In this document: piece after piece, positions 43,095 to 57,600 of the stretch
Layout: every line of letters begins with the position of its first letter
Numbering within the stretch: position 1 is the stretch's first letter
Source: Pseudolabrys sp.
GTDB lineage: Bacteria; Pseudomonadota; Alphaproteobacteria; Rhizobiales; Xanthobacteraceae
Assembly (NCBI GenBank): GCA_017849615.1
Contig: JAFIGS010000002.1
Location: 1 to 63,883 of the forward strand
Direction of reading: 5' to 3'
Length of the DNA stretch: 63,883 bases
Translations under genes and position numbers: made by a program
The notes under the pieces: generated by a model
The model's input: the letters and a program-made list of their open reading frames with translations, nothing else
What the model was told of the DNA's origin: nothing
The model's database searches: none

Positions 43095-43871
43095 TCAGTG
43101 CAAAATCTGGCTGAGGAACAGCTTGGTGCGCTCGTGCTGCGGGTTCGAGAAGAACTCGTTCGGCGTGTTCATCTCGACGATCTGTCCGGCATCCATGAAG
43201 ATGACGCGGTCGGCGACCTGACGGGCGAAGCCCATTTCGTGGGTGACGCACAGCATGGTCATGCCCTCCTCGGCCAGCGTGACCATGGTGTCGAGCACTT
43301 CCTTGACCATTTCCGGGTCAAGCGCCGAGGTCGGCTCGTCGAACAGCATGATCTTCGGGTTCATGCACAATGCGCGCGCGATCGCGACGCGCTGCTGCTG
43401 GCCGCCCGACAACTGGCCGGGATACTTGTGCGCCTGCTCGGGGATCTTCACGCGCTTGAGATAGTGCATGGCGATCTCTTCGGCCTGGCGCTTGGGCATC
43501 TTGCGCACCCAGATTGGCGCCAGCGTGCAGTTCTCAAGGATGGTGAGATGCGGGAACAGGTTGAAGTGCTGGAACACCATGCCGACTTCGCGCCGCACCT
43601 CGTCGATCTTCTTCAGATCCTCGGTCAGCTCGACGCCATCGACGATGATCTGACCCTGCTGATGCTCTTCCAGATGGTTGATGCAGCGGATCATGGTGGA
43701 CTTGCCGGAGCCGGACGGGCCGCAGATCACGATGCGCTCGCCGCCGGTGACGCGCAGATTGATGTCGCGCAGCACGTGGAAATCGCCGTACCACTTGTTC
43801 ATGCCGATGATCTCGACAGCGACCTTGTTGGTCAACTGCGTCGGTTTGATCTTGAGCGCGGTCTCGGCCAT
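43095..43871 (-). CDS. aapP: Amino-acid ABC transporter, ATP-binding subunit (AapP type)
   Basis: Energy-coupling ATPase of the general L-amino-acid transporter. The 258-residue protein has Walker [11 protein letters not shown]-loop [13 protein letters not shown], signature LSGGQQQR, Walker [13 protein letters not shown] and the switch His in VTHEMGF, all in order. The ATG at 43871 directly follows an in-frame GTG. It lies 74 bp downstream of aapM and is the last gene of the aapJQMP operon. Confidence 0.95.
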
Positions 43872-43945
43872 CACGGCACCTCTTTAAAGAATCCGTTCTT
43901 CATCCCGAACGCCGCGGAGACTGGACGCCGCCGCGGCGATATTGT

Positions 43946-45112
43946 TCAGCGGCGATCGGCCTTGGCGAGGCGCTTTTCGGTCGCCTGCGCATAGCGCGAC
44001 ATTCCATAGCAACAGATCAGATAGAACACCGCCGCCACCGCGTAACCTGTCGGCGACGTGCTCGGCGCCGCCCACTTCGGATCGATGCGCGACACCTCGA
44101 CGGTGCGCAACAGATCGAAGATGCCGACGATGAATACCAGGGTAGTGTCCTTGAACAGACCGATATAGGTGTTGACGATATTCGGGATCGTGATCTTGAG
44201 CGCCTGCGGCAGGATGATCAGCCGCATCATCTGCCAGTAGCCGAGGCCGACGGCCTGGGCGCCCTCGTATTGTCCCTTCGGGATCGCGGCGAGACCGGCG
44301 CGGACCACCTCGGCCATGTAGGCGGAGGCGAACATGGCGATACCGATCAGCGCACGCAGCAACTTGTCCGGCGACAGATTCTCCGGAACGAACAGCGGCA
44401 GCATCACGCTCGCCATGAACAGCACGGTGACCAGCGGCACGCCGCGCACGAACTCGATGAACATCACCGAGAACAGCTTGACGGCGGGCATGGTCGAGCG
44501 GCGGCCGAGCGCCAGCAGGATGCCGAGCGGCAGCGAAATCACGATGCCGACGGCGGACACCACGATCGTGACCAGCACGCCGCCCCACAGCACGGTGTCG
44601 ACCCGCTCCAGCCCGATGAGCGGCCAGCCGCGCAGCAGGATGAAGGAGGCGATCGGCGTGAAGATGAAGGCATAGACGACGGCAAGGTCGCGCCGCGGCG
44701 CGTTGAGCCAGAGCAGCCAGACGATCGCCACCGCCAGGATCACGAAGAATACGTCGACGCGCCAGCGCTCCGAAATCGGATAGGAGCCGTAGATAAAATA
44801 CGGCAGGCGCTCGAAGGCGAACGGCCAGCAAGCGCCGACGACCGGACGCTGGGCGGTGATGAGACAGGCCTCGCGGTCGGCTCCGCTCCAGACGGCGTCG
44901 AAAATGAGGAAGCGCAGCAGATCGGGCACGATCCAGAGGATCAGCAGCGAGATCAGGACGGTCAGGCCGATATTGAACGGCGTCGAGAACAGATTTTCGC
45001 GCAGCCAGCCGACGGCGCCGGTCATCGACGCCGGCGGCGGCTGCGCCGGCAGCGTCTCGCGGCGCACGAAGTTGATCTGGGTGACGGCGAGATCGCCTTC
45101 CGACATGGTCAT
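43946..45112 (-). CDS. aapM: Amino-acid ABC transporter, permease (AapM type)
   Basis: Second inner-membrane permease of the AapJQMP complex. The 388-residue protein has hydrophobic segments from residue 45 on and the ABC-2-type permease loop MAEVVRAGLAAIPKGQYEGA, which contacts the ATPase. The long N-terminal part with several extra helices before the permease core is typical of AapM. It starts ten bases after the aapQ stop. Polar and basic amino acids are the usual substrates; specificity cannot be read from sequence. Confidence 0.93.
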   Translation of the reverse strand: MTMSEGDLAVTQINFVRRETLPAQPPPASMTGAVGWLRENLFSTPFNIGLTVLISLLILWIVPDLLRFLIFDAVWSGADREACLITAQRPVVGACWPFAFERLPYFIYGSYPISERWRVDVFFVILAVAIVWLLWLNAPRRDLAVVYAFIFTPIASFILLRGWPLIGLERVDTVLWGGVLVTIVVSAVGIVISLPLGILLALGRRSTMPAVKLFSVMFIEFVRGVPLVTVLFMASVMLPLFVPENLSPDKLLRALIGIAMFASAYMAEVVRAGLAAIPKGQYEGAQAVGLGYWQMMRLIILPQALKITIPNIVNTYIGLFKDTTLVFIVGIFDLLRTVEVSRIDPKWAAPSTSPTGYAVAAVFYLICCYGMSRYAQATEKRLAKADRR

Positions 45113-45122
45113 GGCGCGCGCC

Positions 45123-46313
45123 TCACCGTTCCACCAGCTTCATGCGGCTGTTGTAGAGATTCATCAGGAACGACGTGCTCAGACTGATGGTGAGATAGAC
45201 CGCCATGGTGATGGCGACGACCTCCACCGCCTGGCCGGTCTGGTTGAGGACGGTGCCGGTGAAGACCTGCACGAGGTCGGGATAGCCGATGGCGACCGCA
45301 AGCGAGGAGTTCTTGGTCAGGTTGAGGTACTGGCTGGTCAGCGGCGGGATGATCACGCGCATGGCCTGCGGCACGACGATGAGGCGCAAGGTCGGCCCCG
45401 GTTTCATGCCCAGCGAATAGGACGCTTCGGTCTGGCCGTGCGACACCGCGAGAATGCCGGCGCGCACCACCTCGGCGATGAAGGCCGCCGTGTAGATCGA
45501 CAGGCCGAACAGCAGCGCCGCGAACTCCGGCACGATTTCGAGGCCGCCGGAAATGTTGAAGCGTCCCGCCTGCGGATAGTCGAAGGTCAGCGGCATGCCT
45601 GCAATCAGGAAGACGACGAGCGGCAGGGCGACGATCAGCCCGAGCGACACCAGCAGCACCGGCGCCTGCTGCCCGGTCTGCTCCTGGCGCTTGCGCGCCC
45701 AGTAGCTGTAGGCGATGGCGGCGAGAACGCCGAACAGGAAGGTCAACTCGACAAAGCCGAAGCCGGCTTGAGCCTGCGGCGCCGGCAGGAACAGGCCGCG
45801 ATTGTTGACGACCAGCCCGCCCGGGATCTTCAGGCTGTCGCGCAGGTCGGGCAGCGCCTTGAGCACGGCGTTGTACCAGAACAGCAGTTGCAGCAGCAGC
45901 GGCAGGTTGCGGATGATCTCGACGTAGAATTGGGCCGCCTTGCTGACCAGCCAGTTCTTCGACAGCCGGGCAATGCCGACAATGAAGCCGAGGATGGTCG
46001 CGAACACGATGCCGAGCGCGGCGACCAGCAATGTGTTGAGTAGGCCGACCCAGAAGGCGCGGCCATAGGTCGACACGTTGGAATAGGAAATCAGCGTCTG
46101 GCTGATATCGAAGCCGGCGACATTGTTCCAGAAGCCGAAGCCGGATGCGATGCGCGCGCGCTGCAGGTTCTCGATCGCGTTCGACGCGGCGCCATAGACC
46201 AGCGCGGCGACGATCAGACACAGAGCCACCTGATAGGCGATGCTCCGGACCTTCGGGTCATTGTAAAAAGGCACGCTGGCGGGGGGAGACCCCGCTTTGA
46301 GCTCAGTCGACAT
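45123..46313 (-). CDS. aapQ: Amino-acid ABC transporter, permease (AapQ type)
   Basis: First permease of the general amino-acid transporter, 396 residues. It shows PFYNDPKVRSIAYQ at the start, GLLNTLLVAALGIVFATILG and EIIRNLPLLLQLLFWY in the permease core, and the ATPase-contact loop IAEVVRAGILAVSHGQTEAS. A central insertion with two further helices (residues 175-235) separates the halves, as in other AapQ proteins. Two strong hairpins lie between it and the upstream aapJ gene. Confidence 0.94.
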   Translation of the reverse strand: MSTELKAGSPPASVPFYNDPKVRSIAYQVALCLIVAALVYGAASNAIENLQRARIASGFGFWNNVAGFDISQTLISYSNVSTYGRAFWVGLLNTLLVAALGIVFATILGFIVGIARLSKNWLVSKAAQFYVEIIRNLPLLLQLLFWYNAVLKALPDLRDSLKIPGGLVVNNRGLFLPAPQAQAGFGFVELTFLFGVLAAIAYSYWARKRQEQTGQQAPVLLVSLGLIVALPLVVFLIAGMPLTFDYPQAGRFNISGGLEIVPEFAALLFGLSIYTAAFIAEVVRAGILAVSHGQTEASYSLGMKPGPTLRLIVVPQAMRVIIPPLTSQYLNLTKNSSLAVAIGYPDLVQVFTGTVLNQTGQAVEVVAITMAVYLTISLSTSFLMNLYNSRMKLVER

Positions 46314-46370
46314 CTACCCCTCATCCGGGCGTTAAAGCCGCCCGTTCTGTCGCCCTCGCTCCCGGCCCTG

Positions 46371-46458
46371 CCGGTGGCGGCCTTCCCTCAAAAGCCGCCA
46401 CGGCCGGAACGCTGGCTCACTTTGTCCAGGCCGCCGCGGAGACCCGGTCCGCGGCGGC
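46371..46458 (-). promoter_or_regulatory. Two intercistronic stem-loops between aapJ and aapQ
   Basis: GTGGCGGC at 46374-46381 pairs with GCCGCCAC at 46394-46401, and GCCGCCGCGGA at 46430-46440 pairs perfectly with TCCGCGGCGGC at 46448-46458 with a seven-base loop. No T-run follows on the minus strand. In binding-protein operons such hairpins stabilise the upstream mRNA and raise the binding-protein to permease ratio; that role is inferred from position here. Confidence 0.6.
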
Positions 46459-46493
46459 TCGGCATTGCTTCATGCGCGCGAGCGCGGACCGGT

Positions 46494-47510
46494 CTAGCGG
46501 ACCGGCGGCGCGTATTGCAGGCCGCCCTTGTTCCACAGCTTGTTGAGGCCGCGGTCGATCTTGAGGTTCGAGCCGGCGCCGACGTTGCGGTCGAACACTT
46601 CGCCATAGTTGCCGACCATCTTGACGATGTTCAGCGCCCAGTCCTTGCCGAGGCCGAGCTGCTCGCCGAAGGCACCTTCGGCGCCGAGCAGGCGCTTCAC
46701 GTCCGGGCTGCTCGACTTGAGCATCTCGTCGGTGTTCTTCGAGGTGATGCCGAGCTCTTCGGCGTTGATCATCGCGAACAGGGTCCACTTGACGACGTCG
46801 AACCACTGGTCGTCGCCGTGACGCACGGCCGGCCCGAGCGGTTCCTTGGAGATGATCTCGGGCAGCACGATGTGGTCGCCCGGCGTGGCCAGACGCAGGC
46901 GCTCGGCATAGAGGCCCGAGGCGTCGGTGGTGAACGCGTCGCAGCGGCCGGAGTCGTAAGCCTTCACGGCTTCGTCCGACGAGGCGAAGGTCACGGTCTT
47001 GAGCTTCATGTTGTTGGCGCGGAAGTAGTCGGCCAGGTTGAGTTCCGTCGTGGTGCCCTGCTGCACGCAGACCGAGGCCTCGTTGAGCTCGAGCGCCGAG
47101 TTCACCTTGAGCCCCTTGCGCACCAGGAAGCCCTGGCCGTCGTAGTAGTTGACCCCGGTGAAGTTCAGGCCGAGCTGGGTGTCGCGCGACGAGGTCCAGG
47201 TCGTGTTACGCGCGAGCAGATCGACTTCGCCGGACTGCAGCGCGGTGAAGCGGTCCTTGGCGGAGAGCGGAACGAACTTGACCTTGTTGGGATCGCCGAG
47301 CACCGCGGCGGCAACCGCGCGGCAGGTGTCGACGTCGAGGCCGGTCCACTTGCCCTGCGCATCCGGCAAGCCGAAACCGGCAAGACCGGTATTGGAGCCA
47401 CAGTTGAGAATGCCGCGGTCCTTGACCTGCTTCAGCGTCTGCGCCGACGCGCTTTGCACGGCGAAGATCGCCGCGGTCAAAGCAACAACACTGAGAACTC
47501 GTTTCATCAT
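46494..47510 (-). CDS. aapJ: Amino-acid ABC transporter, periplasmic binding protein (AapJ type)
   Basis: Periplasmic substrate receptor of the AapJQMP system. The 338-residue protein has a signal peptide (VLSVVALTAAIFAVQSASA, cleaved before QTL) and the class 3 solute-binding fold with GILNCGSNTGLAGFG, GLDVDTCRAVAAAV and EVDLLARNTTWTSSRDTQLG. The last segment YGEVFDRNVGAGS is characteristic of AapJ. It is the first gene of the operon; the 373-bp region upstream should contain the promoter. Confidence 0.95.
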   Translation of the reverse strand: MMKRVLSVVALTAAIFAVQSASAQTLKQVKDRGILNCGSNTGLAGFGLPDAQGKWTGLDVDTCRAVAAAVLGDPNKVKFVPLSAKDRFTALQSGEVDLLARNTTWTSSRDTQLGLNFTGVNYYDGQGFLVRKGLKVNSALELNEASVCVQQGTTTELNLADYFRANNMKLKTVTFASSDEAVKAYDSGRCDAFTTDASGLYAERLRLATPGDHIVLPEIISKEPLGPAVRHGDDQWFDVVKWTLFAMINAEELGITSKNTDEMLKSSSPDVKRLLGAEGAFGEQLGLGKDWALNIVKMVGNYGEVFDRNVGAGSNLKIDRGLNKLWNKGGLQYAPPVR

Positions 47511-47825
47511 CCAGCCTCATGCAATAGGTGTTGAATTGTTCTGAATCGTTGGGGCCTCTCGGGAGCTGGCTCTTAAGTTCCCCTCAATAAGGATGCATTG
47601 GCGCGCAATTAGCCAAGGCAGTCCCAAAGCCATCCCCCCAAGCTTTGCTCCTGGAAGGCATCACAGAACGATTGCGGCGCAAGGTCAAGGGTTTAAACAC
47701 CTCCGCGCTGCACAAAGGGGGCCCGCCCTGCCCGTTTAGGAGCAGGCGTTTGCATCCTTTTTTCTCAAACCTGCGCTTGCAGAAGCAGCCCGCTGCGACA
47801 AATTCGCTATCCGGGGAATGCCATT
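47511..47825. other. Intergenic region upstream of aapJ
   Basis: About 315 bp without a believable gene, less GC-rich than its surroundings. It contains CTGC/GCAG stems near 47730-47752 followed on the plus strand by a run of six T at 47758-47763. The aapJ promoter should be here on the minus strand, but no clear sigma-54 (TGGCAC-N5-TTGC) or sigma-70 pair was identified by eye. Confidence 0.6.
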
Positions 47826-47875
47826 ATTCTTTCGTCGGATGAATGCCGATATTCTTTCGTCGGATGAATGCCGAT
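47826..47875. repeat. Perfect 25-bp tandem duplication
   Basis: ATTCTTTCGTCGGATGAATG plus CCGAT occurs at 47826-47850 and again, identically, at 47851-47875. A partial degenerate third copy (TCCGGGGAATGCCATT) precedes them. It ends eight bases before the stop of the LAB_N gene on the minus strand. It may be a slippage product or a small protein-binding site array. Confidence 0.9.
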
Positions 47876-47883
47876 CGCGCCGG

Positions 47884-48213
47884 TCAGGCGGCGGCGCCCT
47901 CGCCGCGGCCGCGCATGACAAATTGCAGATTGCGAATGTAGACGAAGACGCCGAAAGCCTGCCCGATGATGAAGACGGGGTCCTTGCGATACAGCGCATA
48001 GCCAAGCAGCATGAGGCCGCCGCCGATCGAGAACACCCAGAACGCGGTCGGCACCACACTGCGGCCCGCGCGCTCGGACGCGATCCATTGCACCACGAAG
48101 CGCATCGCGAAAAGAATCTGCGCGACATAGCCGATGATGACGCCCCAATCGGCATTGCCGACGAATACGTCGTGCAGATAGCCGCCGACCGCGCCCGTGA
48201 TATCGATCAACAT
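47884..48213 (-). CDS. Lipid A biosynthesis N-terminal domain (LAB_N) membrane protein
   Basis: The 109-residue protein has three hydrophobic helices and the family core GYVAQILFAMRFVVQWIASE followed by SVVPTAFWVFSIGGGLMLLGYALYRKDPVFIIGQ. LAB_N proteins resemble the N-terminal extension of some LpxB proteins and often sit beside GT2 and GT39 genes of lipid-sugar pathways; their exact role is not known. The ATG at 48213 is used. It is the last gene of the five-gene cluster, 60 bp after the GT2 gene. Confidence 0.9.
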   Translation of the reverse strand: MLIDITGAVGGYLHDVFVGNADWGVIIGYVAQILFAMRFVVQWIASERAGRSVVPTAFWVFSIGGGLMLLGYALYRKDPVFIIGQAFGVFVYIRNLQFVMRGRGEGAAA

Positions 48214-48273
48214 TGATTGCTTCCCTCGTTCTCGGGCGACGCATCGCCGCAAGGCGGCGCGCGAGGCCCTGCA

Positions 48274-49002
48274 TCAATCTTCGACGATGTCCGGAATGCG
48301 CTTGCGACGCCGGATAAGCCACCACACCCCGGCAAGGTCGAGAATGCCGACCCAGAGCCGGTCCCAGAGACCGTAGTTCGACACGCCGGAGCCGCGCGTC
48401 CGATCGACGACATCGACATACCCGATGGCGAGGCCCTCGCGCTTGACCAGCGCCGGCATGAAGCGGTGCAACGCATCGAAATACGGCAGACGCAGATACA
48501 CATCGCGGCGGAACGCCTTGAGGCCGCAGCCGGTGTCGCGCGTGCCGTCGCGCAGCACCGCGCCGCGCACCGCATTGGCGATACGCGATTGAATGCGCTT
48601 GAAGGCGCCTTTGCGCGCGAGGCGCTGCCCGGCAACAATGCCAACCGCCGGCGCGCCATCGCGCAGCACCCTCAGCAGCGCGGGGATGAAAGCCGGATCG
48701 TTCTGTCCGTCGCCGTCGATGGTGACGATCACCGGCGCGCGCGCGGCAAGCACGCCGCTGCGCACGGCCGCCGACTGGCCGCAGGACTGGCGATGGCGAA
48801 CGCGGCGCAGATGCGGGTTGAGCGCCATCAGCCGCTTGAGCTCGGCGTCGGTGCCGTCGCTCGAGCCATCGTTCACATAAACGATTTCGAACGGTTCATG
48901 GCCGGCCAGCGCCGCGGTGATCTCGGCGATCAGCGGCGCGACGTTGCCGGCCTCGTTGCGGACGGGAACCACGACGGCCACGGCCGGGTCGTTGCTGCTC
49001 AT
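48274..49002 (-). CDS. Polyprenyl-phosphate sugar synthase, glycosyltransferase family 2 (DPM1/ArnC/RgtE-like)
   Basis: Predicted to move a sugar from a nucleotide donor to undecaprenyl or longer polyprenyl phosphate on the cytoplasmic face. The 242-residue GT2 domain shows VVVPVRNEAGNV, YVNDGSSDGT (nucleotide binding), TIDGDGQNDP (the metal DxD-type motif) and DTGCGLKAFRRDVY. No C-terminal membrane helices follow, unlike ArnC; a hydrophobic-aromatic segment (WVGILDLAGVWWLI) could bind the membrane. The donor sugar cannot be read from the sequence; mannose and galacturonic acid are both plausible in this order. Confidence 0.88.
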   Translation of the reverse strand: MSSNDPAVAVVVPVRNEAGNVAPLIAEITAALAGHEPFEIVYVNDGSSDGTDAELKRLMALNPHLRRVRHRQSCGQSAAVRSGVLAARAPVIVTIDGDGQNDPAFIPALLRVLRDGAPAVGIVAGQRLARKGAFKRIQSRIANAVRGAVLRDGTRDTGCGLKAFRRDVYLRLPYFDALHRFMPALVKREGLAIGYVDVVDRTRGSGVSNYGLWDRLWVGILDLAGVWWLIRRRKRIPDIVED

Positions 49003-49098
49003 GACTTCCGCTCACAACCGTTTGAATTCACGAGAGAATATCGGACGCGCCGGAGCGGCACCACCCCCCGCCGGCCCGGGTCCCCTCCCTGCTCTTTA

Positions 49099-49947
49099 TT
49101 AAGCCAAAAGGTCGCGGGCAACTGCTTTGATGCGGCGCTTCGAGGGACCCGGATACTGGATGATGCCGCCGTCCGGGCCGAGCGCGAAGCCCAAATGCAG
49201 GGCCGCGAACCAGCGCCGCACCAGGATCACCCCGACGATACCGAACGCCGCGGAGACCATCACGTCGCTGACGTAATGGGCGCGCAGGACGATGCGGGTG
49301 ACGCCGATGATCACGGCATAGATGAGCAGCGCGGTGCGCGCCCGGGGAAACAGCGTGCCGAACGCGGCCAGCACGGCGAAGACCGTGGTGCCGTGCCCCG
49401 ACGGAAAACTGGCATAGGCCGGCGCCCAGTGAAGCGGCTCGAACAGGAACGGATTGATCGAGCCGCCGACGCCGGGCCGCGCGCGTCCGATGATGTTCTT
49501 GACCAGGCTGACCGACAATCCCGTCAAACCGATCGACGCGAACAGGAAGCCGGCCCGCACCATGATCGCGGCATGAACCAGTTGCGCCATGCGCGTCGCC
49601 GGACGCGGCAGAGCGGCGAGGAAAAGATAGAACAGGCCGAGCGGCCACAGCACCCAGGCGCCCTTGCCGAAATCGGTGAGGAAATTGGCGAGGTCCAGAA
49701 ACCAGACCGGCAGGCGCTGCACCGCGCGGGTGACCGGAGCGTCGATCAGGGCCATCACAACCAGCGCCGCGCCCAGCACGACGGCAAGGCCGATCAGCAC
49801 CGGCGCCGGCTTGACGATCCAGGGAAACGCCCTGCGCCAGTCGATCGGCCGCCCGAGGCGCCTGAACGAGGCGACGACATTGGCCAGGCAACGGCGCGGC
49901 GCGCCCAGGAGGCTGCGGTCAGCGATGTCTGTCGAGGCAATGCTCAT
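49099..49947 (-). CDS. PAP2 superfamily lipid phosphatase (LpxE/LpxF-like)
   Basis: Membrane phosphatase with the three PAP2 active-site motifs: KNIIGRARP, PSGHG and RIVLRAHYVSD. About six hydrophobic segments and 282 residues from the ATG at 49947. LpxE and LpxF, which remove the 1- and 4'-phosphates of lipid A, share this architecture; undecaprenyl-pyrophosphate phosphatases do too. The neighbouring GT39 and LpxO-like genes favour a lipid A role. Its ATG overlaps the GT39 stop as ATGA, and the GT2 gene follows after 96 bp. Confidence 0.85.
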   Translation of the reverse strand: MSIASTDIADRSLLGAPRRCLANVVASFRRLGRPIDWRRAFPWIVKPAPVLIGLAVVLGAALVVMALIDAPVTRAVQRLPVWFLDLANFLTDFGKGAWVLWPLGLFYLFLAALPRPATRMAQLVHAAIMVRAGFLFASIGLTGLSVSLVKNIIGRARPGVGGSINPFLFEPLHWAPAYASFPSGHGTTVFAVLAAFGTLFPRARTALLIYAVIIGVTRIVLRAHYVSDVMVSAAFGIVGVILVRRWFAALHLGFALGPDGGIIQYPGPSKRRIKAVARDLLA

Positions 49948-51668
49948 GGCACCTCCGAGTGGAAAATCGCCATCGCGAAGCGCTTGCCGTTGCTGATGTT
50001 GAATCCGTCGACGCGGTTGAGCAACGTAAAGCGCACATTGAGCGAATTGGCCCGCTGCACGAAAGCCCGCTCGCTGCGCGCGTCGACCAGCGCGAACCGG
50101 CACGGCCCGCCGTGGAGAAACTCAGCAACGCCCGGCCCGTCCGAGAACTTGGTTTCGGTACCGAGCAGGAAGACAAGGCTCGGCTCCTGGTAGTTGAACG
50201 TCGAGGCCAGATGCGGATCGGCACAGGCCTTGGCGCGAACCTCGCTCGCCACCACCTGGCTCGGGAACAGCGACGGCAGCATCGGGAAAGTGACGGCGTA
50301 CACCGTGATGGAGATGGAGACGGACGCCACCATGCCACGCAGCAATGCGCGCTCGGCGCCGTCCACGCCGAACAGCCGCCAGGCGAACAGGCCGAAGATC
50401 GCCGCCGCCCCGGCAAACGGCCAAGCGATCAGGCCGAGATCCTTGCTCATGGTGACGAAGATGATGGGCACGCCGATCGCGATCGCGCTCGGCAGCAGGA
50501 ACCAGCCAATGGTGCCGTGCTCGATCCACTTGTTGCGCCACAGCGCGTTCTTCTCGACGATGCCGGCGATCAGAATGGCGATGGCCGGATAGAGCGGCAG
50601 CACGTAATGCGGCAGCTTGGTCATCACCAGTTCGAAGACGATCCATGACGGGATCACCCAGGCCAGCAGGAAGCGCGCGCCGGGCTCGGCCCGCGCCTTC
50701 CAGATCGTCGGCGCGGCAAGGCCGGCCAGCACGGCGCCCGGCCAGAAGGTGATCCAGAACAGCAGCAGGTAGTAGCCGGGCGGCGCGCCATGCGCCTCCT
50801 GCCCGCTCGTCACCTTGGCCAGCATGTCGTCGCCGACCGACTTCATGAAGAAGTCGTCGCCCGTTTTGGCGACGATGGCGATGAACCACGGCGCGACCAG
50901 CAGCAGCATCCACAGGAAGCCGGGAACCGGCCGCAGATCGCGCACCCAGCGCAGTGAGCGATCGGCAATGCCGAGCGCCAGGATCGTCAGCGCCACGAAC
51001 ATCAGGACAAGCGGCCCCTTGATCAGCACGCCGCCCGCAATCGCGGTCCACAGCAGCGCCGGCATGCGCCAGCTGGCCGGATGCGGCGGCTGGTGCCGAC
51101 TGCCGAGATAAACACGGGCGAGCGCGCCCATCGCGGCGATGCTCATCAGCAGCAGCGTGGCGTCCGTGGTGGCAAGGCGCGCCTCGACGCCGAGCAGCAA
51201 CGACGTCGCCGTCATCAGCGCCGCCAGCACCGCCGTGCGGCGCGCGACGAAGGCCAGAGCCGTCCAATAGGTCAGCAGCACCGCGCCGATCGCGGCCAGC
51301 AGCGACGGCAGGCGATAGAGCCAGATGGTCCGGTGCGCGTTGGGCACGCCGAGCGCGTCGCCGGCCTTCGCGGCGACCGACTGCAGCCAGTAGATGCCGA
51401 CCGGCTTCTTGTAGCGGACCTCATCCTGGAAACGGATGTCGATATAGTCGCCGCTCTCCACCATCTGCTTGGAGGCCTGCGCGAAGCGCGACTCGTCGCG
51501 ATCGACCGGCGGGATCTGGAAGAAACCCGGCAGGAAGGCAATCAGACACACCACCACCAGCAGCGCCGCCGCACGGCGATGCGACAGCACGGCAAAGTCG
51601 AGCAGCGCGCCAAGCCCGGGGCCGACGCGGCGCTGCGGCGCTGCGGTTTCTACTGAATGACTTTCCAT
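49944..51668 (-). CDS. GT39-type membrane glycosyltransferase (ArnT/Rgt-like)
   Basis: Periplasm-facing transferase using a polyprenyl-phosphate sugar. The 574-residue protein has about twelve membrane helices and the family's first-loop signature PPVDRDESRFAQASKQMVES followed by RYKKPVGIYWLQ, where the Asp-Glu pair is catalytic in ArnT-type enzymes. A soluble C-terminal domain of about 120 residues follows. ArnT adds aminoarabinose and RgtA-D/RgtF add galacturonic acid to LPS or lipid A; which sugar is used here is open. Its start overlaps the LpxO-like gene by 19 bp and its stop overlaps the PAP2 gene by four. Confidence 0.9.
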   Translation of the reverse strand: MESHSVETAAPQRRVGPGLGALLDFAVLSHRRAAALLVVVCLIAFLPGFFQIPPVDRDESRFAQASKQMVESGDYIDIRFQDEVRYKKPVGIYWLQSVAAKAGDALGVPNAHRTIWLYRLPSLLAAIGAVLLTYWTALAFVARRTAVLAALMTATSLLLGVEARLATTDATLLLMSIAAMGALARVYLGSRHQPPHPASWRMPALLWTAIAGGVLIKGPLVLMFVALTILALGIADRSLRWVRDLRPVPGFLWMLLLVAPWFIAIVAKTGDDFFMKSVGDDMLAKVTSGQEAHGAPPGYYLLLFWITFWPGAVLAGLAAPTIWKARAEPGARFLLAWVIPSWIVFELVMTKLPHYVLPLYPAIAILIAGIVEKNALWRNKWIEHGTIGWFLLPSAIAIGVPIIFVTMSKDLGLIAWPFAGAAAIFGLFAWRLFGVDGAERALLRGMVASVSISITVYAVTFPMLPSLFPSQVVASEVRAKACADPHLASTFNYQEPSLVFLLGTETKFSDGPGVAEFLHGGPCRFALVDARSERAFVQRANSLNVRFTLLNRVDGFNISNGKRFAMAIFHSEVP

Positions 51669-52441
51669 TTGTTATAGAAGATGTGGTTGGCCCTGCGGAA
51701 AACCTGATTGACCATGGCGATTGCCGGCCGCAACAGCGCGGTGAACATCGACGGCCGCACCATGTCCACGAACAGGCAGTAGCGCACCTTGTCGGTCTCG
51801 TTGATCGACTGATGCATCAGCGTGTCGTCGAAGATGAACAGCTTCTCGTCCTGCCAGTAATGCGCATGGTCGCCGACGGTGATGTAGGCGGAACGGTCGG
51901 TGATGTCGTTGAGATTGTACAGAACGCGTAAGGTCGGCCGCAGCGGGCCGAAGTGCTTCGAGGTCGAGACCTTCTTGCTGAAGATCGACACCCCGATGGT
52001 CTGGATGTAGTTCCATTGCTCATGAAATTCCGGAACGTTGATGAACGTGTCCCGGTTCTCGCCGTACCATTTGAAGAAGATCATGGTGCGCCCGTCGGTG
52101 GCGCGCTGCTCAAGTTGCTCGACCAGTTTCTCGCGCCGCGCAATATCGATGAGACGCGTCACTTCGTCCCGCCACGGCCCCGGCAGGTCGTCGAGCTTGT
52201 AGATGCCCTTGTTGATGTAGGGCAGCGACAGGATGTCGAGCAGGATGTTGATCGGCGACAGGAGCCAGGTCAGCACGCCGTTGCCGACGAAATACTGCTT
52301 GAGCAGGAAGCCGTTGATCGGGCGGTTGCGGCCGACGTCGTAAAAGCCGCAGGCGGCATAGAACAGCGTCAGCTTCGGGAGGAAGTAGAGCAACCCGACG
52401 CCCGCGCCGAGCATGGCGCCATACTTGATGGTTTTCTTCAA
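51650..52441 (-). CDS. lpxO: Aspartyl/asparaginyl beta-hydroxylase family, LpxO-like lipid A hydroxylase
   Basis: Fe(II)/2-oxoglutarate oxygenase. Residues 1-30 contain a membrane helix (LGAGVGLLYFLPKLTLFYA), and the catalytic part includes TSKHFGPLRPTLRVLYNL and FDDTLMHQSINETDKVRYCL with the metal His residues. The layout and about 263-residue length fit LpxO, which 2-hydroxylates a lipid A acyl chain. The start is read as TTG at 52441, preceded by GGAG eight bases upstream; the first in-frame ATG (52414) would cut into the conserved N-terminus. First gene of the five-gene envelope cluster, 152 bp after pbpC. Confidence 0.82.
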   Translation of the reverse strand: MKKTIKYGAMLGAGVGLLYFLPKLTLFYAACGFYDVGRNRPINGFLLKQYFVGNGVLTWLLSPINILLDILSLPYINKGIYKLDDLPGPWRDEVTRLIDIARREKLVEQLEQRATDGRTMIFFKWYGENRDTFINVPEFHEQWNYIQTIGVSIFSKKVSTSKHFGPLRPTLRVLYNLNDITDRSAYITVGDHAHYWQDEKLFIFDDTLMHQSINETDKVRYCLFVDMVRPSMFTALLRPAIAMVNQVFRRANHIFYNKWKVIQ

Positions 52442-52593: not shown

Positions 52594-54645
52594 CTATTGT
52601 ATTCTGATCACTACGCTATCGGCCGCGCCGCGGGCGTCCATAACGGTCAGGCGGACGAATCCGGGGCCGTCCGGGTGGACGAACAGGGTGCGGCGGTGGC
52701 CGGGAACCCCGACCGGCACGCCATTCACCATGACCGTGAGCGGGCCCGCGCCGCCGGCGATCTTGAGCGCCAGCGGATCGGGAGAGCCCCCGGTCGCCAT
52801 TTCGAGCCGGGCGCCATTCGGCGGGAACATGATGCGGGGCGCCTCGGCCGCCGCGCCATAGGCCAGGGCGCTGAAACGCTGCAGCGGCGGCGGTAGCTTG
52901 GCGGAGGCCGCCACGATGACACCCTTCGGCGCGGCCGCCAACGGCGCCGGCGTGACGCCGGAGCGGGCAAAGGCATCGAACAGGATCGGCGCCGCGGCCG
53001 AGCGCCCGACCAGCCCCGGCACCGGCGCGCCATCCGCCCGCCCGACCCACACGCCCATGGTCATGCGGCCGTCGAACCCGACCGCCCAGGCGTCACGGTA
53101 GCCGTAGGAGGTGCCGGTCTTGAAGGCGAGCCGGTTGTGCGGGGCATTGTCTGGCGGCGGCGCGCCCATCAGGACATTACCGATGTACCAGGCGGCGACC
53201 GGATCGAGCAGTCGGCGGGACGCCGCGCTCGCCTGCCCGGCGCGCTCGGTGAGCGGTTCGGCCTCGCCGCCCCGCGCCAGCGCGGCATAGAGCATGACCA
53301 GATCGTTGAGCGTCACGCCGACGCCGCCGAGCCCCATGGCGAGGCCCGGGGCTTCGCCCGTCGGCAGCACCAGCGCCGCGCCGGCTTGCGTGAGCCGCGC
53401 GCTCAGGCGGTTGACGCCGACCTTGTCGAGCACGGCGATGGCCGGCACGTTGAGCGAGAGTTGCAGCGCGCGGCGGACCGTCACGGTGCCCTGGAAGGTG
53501 AGGTCGAAATTCTCCGGCGTGTAGCCGCCGTAACGCTGCGGCCGGTCGTCGATCAAGGTCTCGGGATGAATGAGGCCATCCTCGAAACCGAGGCCGTAGA
53601 TGAACGGCTTGAGCGTCGAGCCCGGCGAGCGCAGCGCCGCGGTCATGTCGACCTGCCCGGCCCGGCGCGCATCGAAGTAATCGGATGAGGCGACACGCGC
53701 CCTCACCTCGCCGGTTTCGTTATCGACGGCGAGAATGGCGACGGAGATGTTCGGGCCGAGCGCCTCGGCGCGTTCCTTCGCCAATATTTGCAGCTTGGCC
53801 TGCAGCGGCTGATCGATGGTGAGGCGGTGAATGCGCCGGTCTGGTTCGGCGACGGCGATGCGGTCGGCCGAATGCGGCGCAAACACCGGCATTGGCCGCC
53901 GCTCATGCGGCACGATCTCCGCCTTCGCGCGCGCGATCTCGTCGCGCGGCACCGCGCCGGCCTGCGTAACGCGATCGAGCACACGGTCGCGCGCCGCCTG
54001 CGCGCGGGCGCTGTGGCGATCGGGCCGCCGCGACTCCGGCGATTGCGGCAACGCCACCAGCAGCGCGGCCTCGCCCAATGTCAGCCGCCGCGGCTCCTTG
54101 CCGAAATATGCCAGCGACGCGGCGCGGATGCCTTCGAGATTGCCGCCGTAAGGCGCCAGCGTGAGATAGAGCGACAGGATTTCCGGCTTGGTCAGCGCGT
54201 ATTCGAGCTGCAGCGCGCGCGTCACCTGCCGCAGCTTGGCGGTGAAGGTGCGATGCTCGCGCGGCTCCAGCAGGCGCGCGACCTGCATGGTGAGCGTCGA
54301 GCCGCCGGAAATGATGCGATGCGCGGAGCCGAGCTGCCACGCCGCCCGCGCCATCGCCAGAGGATCGACGCCGTGATGACCGAGGAAGCGCTTGTCCTCG
54401 TAGGCATAGAGCAGTTTGAGAAAGCGCGGATCGACATTCTCGACGCCCGCCGGCAAGTGCCAGCGGCCATCCTTGGTGGCGTAAGCGCGCAACAGCCGGC
54501 CCTCGCGATCCAGCACGACATGCGACAGTTCGACGTCCTTGCCGAGCGGCGCCGGGCCGAGCGAATACACCCATCCGGCACAAGCGGCCGTCACCAGCGC
54601 GACCGCGCCGGCGAGCGCCGCGACGATGCGTTTGATGCGCCTCAT
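52594..54645 (-). CDS. pbpC: Penicillin-binding protein 1C
   Basis: Bifunctional class A PBP. The 683-residue protein has an N-terminal anchor (residues 5-25), a glycosyltransferase domain with catalytic Glu83 in AYEDKRF and GGSTLTMQVARLLEP, a transpeptidase domain with STLK (GSTLKPFIYG), SLN and KTGTS, and a C-terminal PBP1C module (IMFPPNGARLEMATGG). Its ATG overlaps the stop of the alpha-2-macroglobulin gene (ATGA). The pair matches E. coli yfhM-pbpC, where wall repair is thought to be combined with protease trapping. Confidence 0.96.
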   Translation of the reverse strand: MRRIKRIVAALAGAVALVTAACAGWVYSLGPAPLGKDVELSHVVLDREGRLLRAYATKDGRWHLPAGVENVDPRFLKLLYAYEDKRFLGHHGVDPLAMARAAWQLGSAHRIISGGSTLTMQVARLLEPREHRTFTAKLRQVTRALQLEYALTKPEILSLYLTLAPYGGNLEGIRAASLAYFGKEPRRLTLGEAALLVALPQSPESRRPDRHSARAQAARDRVLDRVTQAGAVPRDEIARAKAEIVPHERRPMPVFAPHSADRIAVAEPDRRIHRLTIDQPLQAKLQILAKERAEALGPNISVAILAVDNETGEVRARVASSDYFDARRAGQVDMTAALRSPGSTLKPFIYGLGFEDGLIHPETLIDDRPQRYGGYTPENFDLTFQGTVTVRRALQLSLNVPAIAVLDKVGVNRLSARLTQAGAALVLPTGEAPGLAMGLGGVGVTLNDLVMLYAALARGGEAEPLTERAGQASAASRRLLDPVAAWYIGNVLMGAPPPDNAPHNRLAFKTGTSYGYRDAWAVGFDGRMTMGVWVGRADGAPVPGLVGRSAAAPILFDAFARSGVTPAPLAAAPKGVIVAASAKLPPPLQRFSALAYGAAAEAPRIMFPPNGARLEMATGGSPDPLALKIAGGAGPLTVMVNGVPVGVPGHRRTLFVHPDGPGFVRLTVMDARGAADSVVIRIQ

Positions 54646-57600
54646 CGCGCCGGCATGACCTCCACCGTTCCGGTCGCGGTGCGCGCGAAGCGCTCGGGCC
54701 GGTACATGTCCTCCACCGTCGCCTGCGGCAGCACGTAGCGGCCGGGCGAGATGGCGCGCACCACATAGGCCGCCGTGAACACCGGCTTGTCGTTGTTCGG
54801 ACGCCGCTCATAGGCCGCGGTGAACCGGTCATCGCGGAATTCCGTGCTCGCGGCCGGCGCGCCGTCGGCGATCCAGCCAAGCGAACCGGTTTCGCCCGAC
54901 GACACCAGTTTCGGATTATCGATCTCGAAACCGGCCGGCAGATAATCGGCCACCATGATGCGGCCGAACTGCACCTGCGGCTCGGTCACCTTGAGCACCA
55001 CGACGAAGCGGTCGTTCTGCTTCGCCTTGGAGGGATCGGCCGGCTCACCGGCCAGGGTGTAGTAGTTGCGCTCGAGCTTGAAGCCCGCTTCGGTCGCGGG
55101 CTCCGGGTTGAGCGGCGCTCCCGACACCGAGACCACCACCTGCACCGCGCCCTCGCCGCTATTGGTGACGCGGAACGGCGATGCGAGCTGATCCGGGTTG
55201 AAGCGCCGATAGTAGGCGCCCTTCTGCGCGTTGCCGTTGACGTTGAGCGCGATGGCGTTGAGCTCGCCCGCCAGCGCCTTCGCCGCCATCACCAGCCAGG
55301 CGTCCTCCTGCGTCGAGGTTTGCTTGACGGCAGCACGCGCGGAGTCGATGCGCGCCACCGCCTGCGTGATGGTCCCCGCCGGCGCGCGGCCCTCGGAGGC
55401 GAGCGTCACCAGCGCGGCGGCGTCGCGCAGCGCCGAGCCGAAGTCCTCGCGGCCAATCTCCAAAGTCGGCTTGGCCGGGATGGCGTCGAGCGCGGCGCGA
55501 TAGACGCGGTCGGCCCGCGTCTTGTCCCCGAGCATGGCGAGCGCCGCGGCCACCTGCGCCTTGGCGATCGGCGTCGCCAAGGCGTCGAGCTTGACGTCGG
55601 CGATATAACGCAAGTCGCCAACCGGCGCCGCGCCATTGCGCGCCAGAACATAGAACGCATAAGCAAGCTCACGGCCGCCATTCTTGTCCGGCTCCGGCGC
55701 GGTCGCGACGTAATTGCGCAACCGGTCGATGGCCAATGTCATCGCAACCTGCGGCACCTCGAACTTCTTCTCCCGCGCACGGGTGAGGAAATCCGTGATG
55801 TAGGCGTCCAGCCACGGATCGCCGCCGCCGACCGACCACAGGCCGAACGAACCGCTCGAGCTCTGTCGTGCCGTCAGCCGCGCAATGGCATCCCTGATGC
55901 GGGCATCGACGTCGCCGTCCGGCGCAAGGCGCGCCTGCGCGGCAAGATCGTTGATGTACAGCATCGCCACGGCGCGGCTGGCGATCTGCTCGGAGCAGCC
56001 GAACGGATAGCGGTCGAGCTGGTTGAGCAAGGTCGCCGCGTCGAGCGAGGTCGAGACCGCGACCGACAACCCGGCACGTCCCGTGCCGGGCACGAAATCC
56101 GCGAACACGTCATTCGACAGCGTCAGCGTCTCGCCCTTGGCGAGCGAACGCACCGAGCGGCGGGTCAGGATCTGCGTCGCCGGGCGCACATCGAGATTGT
56201 AGCTGCGCGCCAGCCTGAAGCCGTTCGGCCCTTCGACATTGACCGCGACCGTGCTTGCGCCGGAGCCGGACGCCGATACCGGCACCGACAGACGGCCCCG
56301 CGCCCTGGCGGCCAGGGTCAGCGCCGGCGGCGCATCGCCCTCGCGCTTCACGGCGCCGGCGGTGTCAACGGCAAGCCTGTAATCACCGGCAACGCCGTCA
56401 ACATTGTCGAGCTCGACCTGAATGGTGCCGCGATCGCCGGTGCGCAGGAAGCGCGGCAGCGTCGCCGTCAGCACCACCGGATCGCGCACCACGACATCGC
56501 CGGACGCCTTGCCGACCTTGTCGTTGCTCCAGGCCACCGCCATGACGCGAACGGTGCCCGCGAAACCCGGAATGTCGAAAGAGACATTGACCGTACCGCC
56601 GGGGCCGACCGTGACGATGCCCGAATACAGCGACAGCGGCGCCTGCGCCGGAGGCGAGCCGGACAGTTCGGCGCCGCCCATATCGCCGCCGGAGCGGATC
56701 TGGCCACGCGCGCCCTGCATGCCGTCAATGAGCTGGCCGTAGAGGTCGCGCACTTCTGCGGTCAGACGGCGCTGGCCGAGGTAATAGTCGTCCGGCGCCG
56801 GCGGCTTGTAGTTGGTGAGGTTGAGGATGCCGACGTCAACGGCGGCAACAACCACGCGCGCTTGTTCACCCGCGCCAAGACCGCCGATCTTGATCGGAAT
56901 GTTGAGCGCGCCTTCGGGCCGCATGGTTTGCGGCAAGGTCATGGCAACGCCAAGCGTGCGCTGGCTGCGATCGATGTTGAACCACTGCACGCCGATGGCG
57001 CGGCCCGGCATGCGCTGCGCCGGCGCATCGAGCGGACGGCGCAAGGTGGCGACGAGATAAGCGCCCGTGCCCCAGTCCTTGGCCACCGGCATCGCAATCT
57101 TCACGGTGCCCGCGGCGCTCACATCCTGCGACTGACTCATGACCAGTTTGTCGGTGAACACGTTGAGCGTCAGGCGGCCGGCGCTGCGCGCCGTCACCGC
57201 GACATTCATGGTGTCGCCCGAGGCATAGCCGGGCTTGTCGAGCGCGATGTCGAGCAGATCCGGCGTGTCGGCGCTCGACTCCGCATAGAATCCGGCATCG
57301 AACGACATCGACGTGATCATACCGCCGGCGTTGCCATCGGTGACTTCAAGGCGATAGCGGCCCCAGTTAACCGGCAGCGACAGCTTGCCGGGCTGGGCAG
57401 TCGACACATCGACGGTGCCGCTCGCGACACGCTGCGTGCGCTTGACCGGCTCGTAATTCCACTGCCCGTTCTGGCGGTACCACTGATAGGTGGTCTCGAC
57501 GCGCAGCAGTTCGTACTTCAGCCCCTTGCGATCGAGCGTCTTACCGTCGGGAGCGGCGACAATGACGTCAAACTCCGCATTGGCGCCGTCGGCGAGCGAC

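Follow-up and report, generated by a model that had tools for sequence, protein, structure and literature searches.

In the 63,883 nt window analysed here (Pseudolabrys sp., assembly GCA_017849615.1, contig JAFIGS010000002.1, positions 1 to 63,883), five reading frames were found on the minus strand, encoding in order an LpxO-like dioxygenase, a GT39 transferase, a PAP2 lipid phosphatase, a GT2 glycosyltransferase and the small membrane protein LAB_N. This locus is probably the Pseudolabrys copy of the rgtF-lpxE-rgtE module, in which LAB_N would form the membrane part of the donor pathway and most likely act as a translocase. The module itself is largely known, since published chemistry and gene tables tie such genes to lipid A carrying galacturonic acid (GalA); the new part is the role of LAB_N. 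The rgtF-lpxE-rgtE cluster has been published for Mesorhizobium loti (PMC5644692, citing Brown 2013) and for Oligotropha carboxidovorans, OCA5_c19730-19750 (PMC7663294), and alpha-GalA at C-1 of lipid A has been tied to such genes in Oligotropha (PMC7663294), Rhodomicrobium (PMC7795004), and Phyllobacterium and M. loti (PMC5644692). The original prediction was of an undescribed, self-contained lipid A glycosylation module including LpxO. A glycosylation module it remains, best read as one of GalA type, but it is not undescribed, having been published in those reports, and the idea that it is self-contained with LpxO is not supported. LAB_N, which was then assigned no known role, has become the most informative gene of the set, and its role is now a testable hypothesis.

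The distribution of LAB_N follows that of a short GT2 without a membrane anchor, and not that of GT39. The short and long forms of GT2 were separated by profile score (at least 259 bits against about 220 bits or fewer), with length checked in the fetched loci; the GT2 of one genome, which scores 230 bits, is truncated by the end of its contig (G015; genomes are given here as G numbers, loci and records as L numbers). In a sample of 119 genomes of the family, 95 have LAB_N, 107 have GT39 (E<=1e-30) and 100 have the short GT2. LAB_N and the short GT2 are found together in 94, LAB_N only in 1 (G020), the GT2 only in 6 and neither in 18. For 199 genomes of the order, the corresponding numbers are 75, 2, 4 and 118, and the two with LAB_N only have contig ends 78 and 200 bp off. 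A scripted recount left these numbers unchanged. Both samples contain related genomes, so the genomes are not independent and Fisher tests on the counts overstate the independence of the data. GT39 occurs without LAB_N in 14 of the 107 family genomes, and 8 of these are also without the short GT2 (G003, G022, G027, G038, G039, G049, G092 and G103, of which G049 is fragmented into many contigs and G003, G022 and G103 have weaker GT39 matches). Of the 244 LAB_N open reading frames, a number that includes genomes taken twice, 231 have a short GT2 on their own strand no more than 2.2 kb away, as do 189 of the 199 distinct sequences. Where GT2 is ahead of LAB_N, 181 of 182 distinct pairs are within 120 nt of each other. 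Among the 10 distinct exceptions, two are at contig ends and three (L013/L054, L212 and L267) have a short GT2 a few kb off, on the other strand.

Where the short GT2 lacks LAB_N, its place is often taken by a VTT-domain protein. Of the six family genomes with GT2 only, two (G015 and G048) end within GT2 at a contig edge and in three (G044, G074 and G096) GT2 is followed, after 3 bp, by a VTT protein. In the order sample, all four genomes with a short GT2 and no LAB_N (G156, G189, G200 and G310) have a VTT protein -4 to +5 bp behind it. The Pfam VTT_dom match is above the cut-off in all six that were scanned of these seven proteins, and the remaining one, from G074, is closely related to that in G044 (453 bits). 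The VTT proteins form two groups, with 53-89% identity within one and 41% within the other, and relatives (E<=1e-5) among the open reading frames of the examined loci are found in LAB_N-less genomes only. For example, the order in G200 and G310 is GT39-PAP2-GT2-VTT-SBP3 and that in G288, of the same genus, is GT39-PAP2-GT2-LAB_N-SBP3, the solute-binding SBP3 frame being recognised by eye and alignment. The GT2s of these three genomes are 82-85% identical, and no remnant of LAB_N was found at the G200 and G310 loci. DedA/VTT proteins include candidate translocases for undecaprenyl phosphate (Und-P; PMC9876793), and scramblases also belong to them. Together, the co-occurrence with the short GT2 and the exchange for VTT proteins suggest that LAB_N may be a flippase for a polyprenyl-phosphate sugar.

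Other genomes have a longer GT2. The best RgtE-type GT2 in each of G141, G300, G542, G553 and G221 has 338-361 residues and two C-terminal hydrophobic segments, transmembrane segments being predicted by a simple hydropathy scan, and LAB_N was looked for and not found in these five genomes. The published Rhizobium RgtE, RL1470, likewise has 338 residues (PMC7795004). Two genomes of the same genus as G221 (G186 and G251) have a short GT2 of 244 residues with no such segment, and LAB_N is present. None of the 231 GT2s beside LAB_N extends more than 44 residues beyond the profile, and in one genome (G344; L256 and L271) a single hydrophobic segment is marked near the C-terminus. The presence of a long GT2 does not preclude LAB_N, because four genomes (G011, G040, G117 and G142) carry both. 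One of these, G011, has a weak VTT-like frame (L329 3198-3935, 22.8 bits) 1.9 kb behind its long GT2. In L324 (3924-5743), a long RgtE-type GT2 overlaps with the beginning of a protein that has the transmembrane region of lysylphosphatidylglycerol synthase (PF03706), which is perhaps another type of membrane partner.

The association extends well beyond the order. Among 299 genomes of the phylum, 44 have a LAB_N match that exceeds the Pfam cut-off, and GT2 is present in 16 of 20 stretches chosen among the phylum matches, most of which are distant, with variable adjacency; in one of the four stretches without GT2 (L268) the LAB_N match is itself sub-threshold. LAB_N is also found in 19 plasmid records, from Alphaproteobacteria, Fusobacteriota, Bacteroidota, Paenibacillus and Aeromonas, and GT2 is near it in 13 of the 14 that were examined. 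The Aeromonas caviae record in the plasmid collection (L161) is 4.94 Mb long and looks like a chromosome or co-integrate. Genes for an epimerase and/or a UDP-glucose dehydrogenase adjoin LAB_N and GT2 in Cetobacterium, Paracoccus, Phocaeicola and Paenibacillus. Such neighbours are consistent with a uronic acid donor, and the epimerases would make UDP-GalA. Since the Gram-positive Paenibacillus has the LAB_N and GT2 pair, LAB_N would appear to serve the donor rather than lipid A.

LAB_N is predicted to have a three-helix SemiSWEET-like fold. Its AlphaFold2 model has a pLDDT (predicted local distance difference test) of 86, and in a Foldseek search the first 14 of 51 matches are all SemiSWEETs (target TM-score (TMt) up to 0.87, probability 0.97-1.00, E 0.015-0.24). 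Residues R38 and R94 are invariant in 68 aligned rows. Fused, double LAB_N proteins (L160, L162 and L267) have 7, 6 and 7 hydrophobic segments, as expected of a fusion of the SemiSWEET-to-SWEET type; their owners are Hymenobacter, Phocaeicola and one Pseudomonadota genome. The Pfam MtN3-like clan includes Lab-N (PMC4499210) and MPDU1 has been grouped with the SWEETs (PMC3281891).

The core GT39-PAP2-GT2-LAB_N is conserved family-wide. The gene-neighbourhood survey suggested with the original prediction covered 120 neighbourhoods (40 loci of family genomes and 80 from named organisms, some genomes being taken twice). GT39, GT2 and LAB_N, whether or not PAP2 is present, are in the same order on one strand in 117 of them, a shared core order that excludes LpxO, and one of the three that break it is cut by a contig end. 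This arrangement is not due to chance. The commonest pattern, PBP1C-GT39-PAP2-GT2-LAB_N-(SBP3), is found in 90 neighbourhoods (75 with SBP3 and 15 without) and spans Bradyrhizobium, Tardiphaga and Pseudolabrys. PBP1C adjoins the module in most family loci and the downstream solute-binding gene is likewise mostly kept. PAP2 was not recognised at the locus in 12 of the 120, including Nitrobacter. A search of 14 other genomes, of which 12 have the locus without PAP2 and two (G027 and G038) also lack GT2 there, gave a best PAP2 of the Pseudolabrys type of only 46 bits, against 340 for the Pseudolabrys protein itself. PAP2 was thus rejected as an indispensable member. The record titled Frankia sp. 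RB7 (L117) has a locus with Bradyrhizobium-like order and identity, and is probably mislabelled or mixed. In an alphaproteobacterial genome, LAB_N (L276 6246-6725) immediately follows PBP1C (phmmer 646 bits), and no GT2 lies in the vicinity.

The enzyme types are those originally predicted for GT39 and GT2. When the GT39 profile was run against all PDB sequences, ArnT was the sole match at E<=1 (E 1e-20), and the reading of GT39 as a protein mannosyltransferase fails because ArnT alone matches. GT39 is not an ArnT equivalog, with 88 bits against the NCBIfam cut-off of 567. The best PDB relatives of GT2 by profile are ArnC (1e-47), sll0501 and DPM synthase, which supports a synthase of polyprenyl-phosphate sugars, and D96 and D98 are invariant across 22 aligned sequences. 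In PAP2, the catalytic residues K150, R157, P158, S183, H185, R218, H224 and D228 are invariant in 32 aligned sequences. Its profile matches PgpB (9e-13) and LpxE (8e-10), and a Foldseek search with the predicted structure puts Bacillus subtilis PgpB first (5e-4) and LpxE third (2e-3, TMt 0.74).

The LpxO-like protein is an optional member of the set and, by its sequence, a distant relative of LpxO. It scores 48 bits against the NCBIfam LpxO cut-off of 500, and 49 against 450 for OlsC. It has an Asp/Arg hydroxylase domain with conserved histidines, and H163, H210 and R220 are invariant in five aligned sequences. The gene is present in 9 of the 119 family genomes (E<=1e-48), with weak matches only in 7 more; the copies in two of the 9 are in pieces (G085, L305 and L313; G030, L304 and L314). 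It is linked to the module in five of the 9, in three arrangements: upstream on the same strand (the Pseudolabrys window, G110 and G076), on the opposite strand (G005), and between PAP2 and GT2 (G030). Three of the remaining four have the gene and the module on different contigs, and the two may still be linked there. Further loci, of named organisms, have it on the same strand (L078) or the opposite strand (L088 and L132). It is missing at the module in G034, G070 and G091, three of the five genomes of the genus, and being absent from most loci it was rejected as a core member. Its recurrence at one locus suggests that it is functionally linked to the module.

The five genes in the window are listed in Table 1, and all five Pfam matches exceed the curated cut-offs. 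The layout on one strand with short overlaps and gaps is as originally described. The LpxO-like and GT39 frames overlap by 19 bp and GT39 and PAP2 by 4 bp (ATGA); the gaps are 96 bp between PAP2 and GT2, 60 bp between GT2 and LAB_N, and 152 bp between PBP1C and the LpxO-like gene. The first start codon of the LAB_N frame, TTG at 48252, is probably the wrong start. An alternative ATG at 48213, preceded by GAGGGAAG, yields 109 amino acids, and the LAB_N frames in four other genomes of the genus (L033-L036) have the equal length of 330 bp. No promoter was found in a promoter scan, and the number of terminators, 7, is close to that expected by chance (5.8 on average after shuffling).

Table 1. Genes of the module in the Pseudolabrys window
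Gene product	Position	Strand	Remarks
LpxO-like dioxygenase with predicted Asp/Arg-beta-hydroxylase fold	51650..52441	-	TTG start, GGAG ahead; Pfam PF05118 Asp_Arg_Hydrox 3.8e-15; accessory member
GT39/ArnT-related GT-C transferase, RgtF-type	49944..51668	-	Pfam PMT 3.3e-11
PAP2 lipid phosphatase, LpxE/PgpB-like	49099..49947	-	Pfam PAP2 2.6e-20
Short GT2, polyprenyl-phosphate-sugar synthase, RgtE-type, no recognised transmembrane helices	48274..49002	-	Pfam Glycos_transf_2 1.2e-23
LAB_N, small predicted membrane protein, SemiSWEET-like predicted fold	47884..48213	-	PF07578 1.3e-32

Upstream of the five genes are PBP1C (52594-54645) and then a frame of 1745 amino acids (54642-59879), which may encode an alpha-2-macroglobulin. 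Just behind LAB_N are two tandem 25 bp direct repeats that are 92% identical (47816-47865), and further downstream are frames resembling an amino-acid ABC transporter (43095-47510, of which 46494-47510 is the first).

In the proposed mechanism, the cytoplasmic GT2 would attach a sugar, most likely galacturonic acid, to a polyprenyl phosphate. LAB_N, with its predicted three-helix SemiSWEET fold and probably as a dimer, would take over what the anchor-less GT2 has made, and its most likely role is to bring the polyprenyl-phosphate sugar, or else the carrier once it is spent, to the other side of the inner membrane. PAP2 would strip a phosphate from lipid A, GT39 would put the sugar onto the position thus freed, and the LpxO-like protein would add an optional hydroxylation. 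GalA as the sugar, lipid A as the acceptor and position 1 as the site would be as in published work on relatives. The analysis itself shows which genes are present and in what order, that LAB_N co-occurs with the short GT2 and is exchanged for VTT proteins, and what fold is predicted for it; from this we infer direct contact between LAB_N and GT2, flipping, dimerisation and the target of the hydroxylation.

Several observations weigh against this reading. The VTT proteins exchanged for LAB_N were not placed in a subfamily by an NCBIfam search; one of four matches the UptA model at 20 bits (cut-off 250) and the other three not at all. According to one analysis, Und-P flipping is confined to one DedA subfamily, and the exchanged proteins may belong to a subfamily deemed unlikely to flip Und-P (PMC10127716). 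The SemiSWEET likeness of LAB_N is weak by E-value: all Foldseek values are above 0.001, the best being 0.015, and of nine PDB matches to its profile the six best are SemiSWEETs at E 0.016-0.24 and the other three are an unrelated enzyme at E 0.34. Of the PQ motif only the Q is kept (Q42, invariant in the 68 rows, behind a nearly invariant V41). The pairing with the short GT2 is also imperfect. In G020, LAB_N is directly behind PAP2 with no GT2, in a genome that is 80% complete; a contig-end effect was rejected as the explanation, the run PBP1C-GT39-PAP2-LAB_N being continuous without GT2. The short GT2 of G075, the sixth family genome with GT2 only, and a second short GT2 in G189 are accompanied neither by LAB_N nor by any evident VTT protein. 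LAB_N in L160, L264, L265 and L276 has no such GT2 nearby, and in L266 it clusters with a farther-off long GT2 that has three hydrophobic segments. Four genomes, those noted above as carrying both kinds, have an extra long GT2 (336-374 residues, two segments) elsewhere besides the short GT2 and LAB_N. The Paenibacillus stretch with LAB_N and GT2 yielded no recognisable GT39. Neither profile nor fold search separates LpxE from PgpB for the PAP2 protein. Finally, the sugar, linkage and acceptor rest on relatives, and the Rgt assignment on enzyme type and cluster order.

It is known that DPM2 and DPM3 anchor or activate DPM1, and LAB_N could be a comparable, non-flipping membrane anchor or activating subunit of the soluble GT2. 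The pairing of LAB_N with the short GT2, its absence from the five long-GT2 genomes and the abutting genes (the 181 of 182 GT2-first pairs) would all fit such a role. However, an exchange for proteins with the fold of lipid scramblases and flippases would be odd for a mere anchor, the short GT2 of G075 has neither partner, and the GT2 in L266 has hydrophobic segments of its own, so that an anchor is considered rather unlikely. Still less probable is that the module is a standard rgtF-lpxE-rgtE one and that LAB_N is a hitch-hiker with no part in the pathway. This would account for its absence from 14 of the 107 GT39-bearing family genomes, but not for a pairing with GT2 that is tight throughout the phylum and also found on plasmids and in a Gram-positive, or for the loss of both genes together; it is regarded as very improbable.

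The acceptor of GT39 might be something other than lipid A, for example another periplasmic glycolipid. The GT2 and LAB_N pair in Paenibacillus points in this direction, as do the conserved neighbour PBP1C and the failure to find a PAP2 of the Pseudolabrys type in Nitrobacter and others. On the other side, ArnT is the only PDB relative of GT39, and in Oligotropha, where the homologous genes are clustered alike, GalA-lipid A has been shown chemically (PMC7663294). A different acceptor is unlikely, though less so than the hitch-hiker. The reading with the least to recommend it takes up the original idea of a self-contained, new set of five genes and makes LpxO hydroxylation a required step. Five of the nine family genomes with the LpxO-like gene do have it at the module, in one of three arrangements, but its absence at most loci, including those of three of the five genomes of the genus, makes this highly improbable. 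The reading of LAB_N as the membrane half of an rgtF-lpxE-rgtE donor branch is thus preferred.

Many glycosylation pathways include a membrane passage of polyprenyl-phosphate sugars that is still unexplained. If LAB_N is a translocase or an obligate partner, a protein of 109 residues in a replaceable operon slot makes both questions testable, and congeneric species with LAB_N or VTT in one slot provide the basis for doing so. A true role of this kind would also give a function to a family that is now annotated after the lipid A disaccharide synthase. It is possible, although at somewhat less than even chances, that bacteria have in LAB_N their counterpart of MPDU1: a translocase of SemiSWEET fold that is dedicated to polyprenyl-phosphate-linked uronic acids, interchangeable with VTT/DedA-type scramblases, and the third component of widespread extracytoplasmic glycosylation systems. 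MPDU1 is needed for the known mammalian dolichol-phosphate-sugar reactions, by a mechanism that was unknown as of 2012 (PMC3281891). Were LAB_N its counterpart, a SWEET-type fold would translocate lipid-linked sugars and the 'lipid A biosynthesis' name would be a misnomer. No proposal of LAB_N in donor translocation was found in the portions of the open-access literature that were searched.

In comparison with the RgtF-LpxE-RgtE systems of M. loti and O. carboxidovorans, the Pseudolabrys locus has the same three enzyme types, also clustered, and the locus tags of O. carboxidovorans run consecutively as rgtE-lpxE-rgtF, the same as in Pseudolabrys (PMC7663294). It differs in that LAB_N is not named in the published cluster, as far as the available text of those reports goes, and in the extra LpxO-like gene. 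The three-component GtrABC systems similarly combine a polyprenyl-phosphate-sugar synthase, a GT-C transferase and one small membrane protein, which in Pseudolabrys is predicted to be SemiSWEET-like rather than of the GtrA, SMR or MATE type (PMC11127046). GtrA itself has two copies in the Pseudolabrys genome, each sharing a locus with a different GT2. Among solved structures, the nearest to GT39 is ArnT and the nearest to GT2 is ArnC, both of the 4-amino-4-deoxy-L-arabinose (Ara4N) pathway, to which ArnE and ArnF also belong. However, GT39 is well below the ArnT cut-off, and the Pseudolabrys GT2 is without the C-terminal helices that ArnC has. LAB_N resembles the SemiSWEET, SWEET and MPDU1 proteins (MtN3-like, PQ-loop) in predicted fold, in clan and in the occurrence of three-helix and fused, longer forms, and differs from them in having VQ for PQ, the invariant R38 and R94, and a glycosyltransferase as its operon partner.

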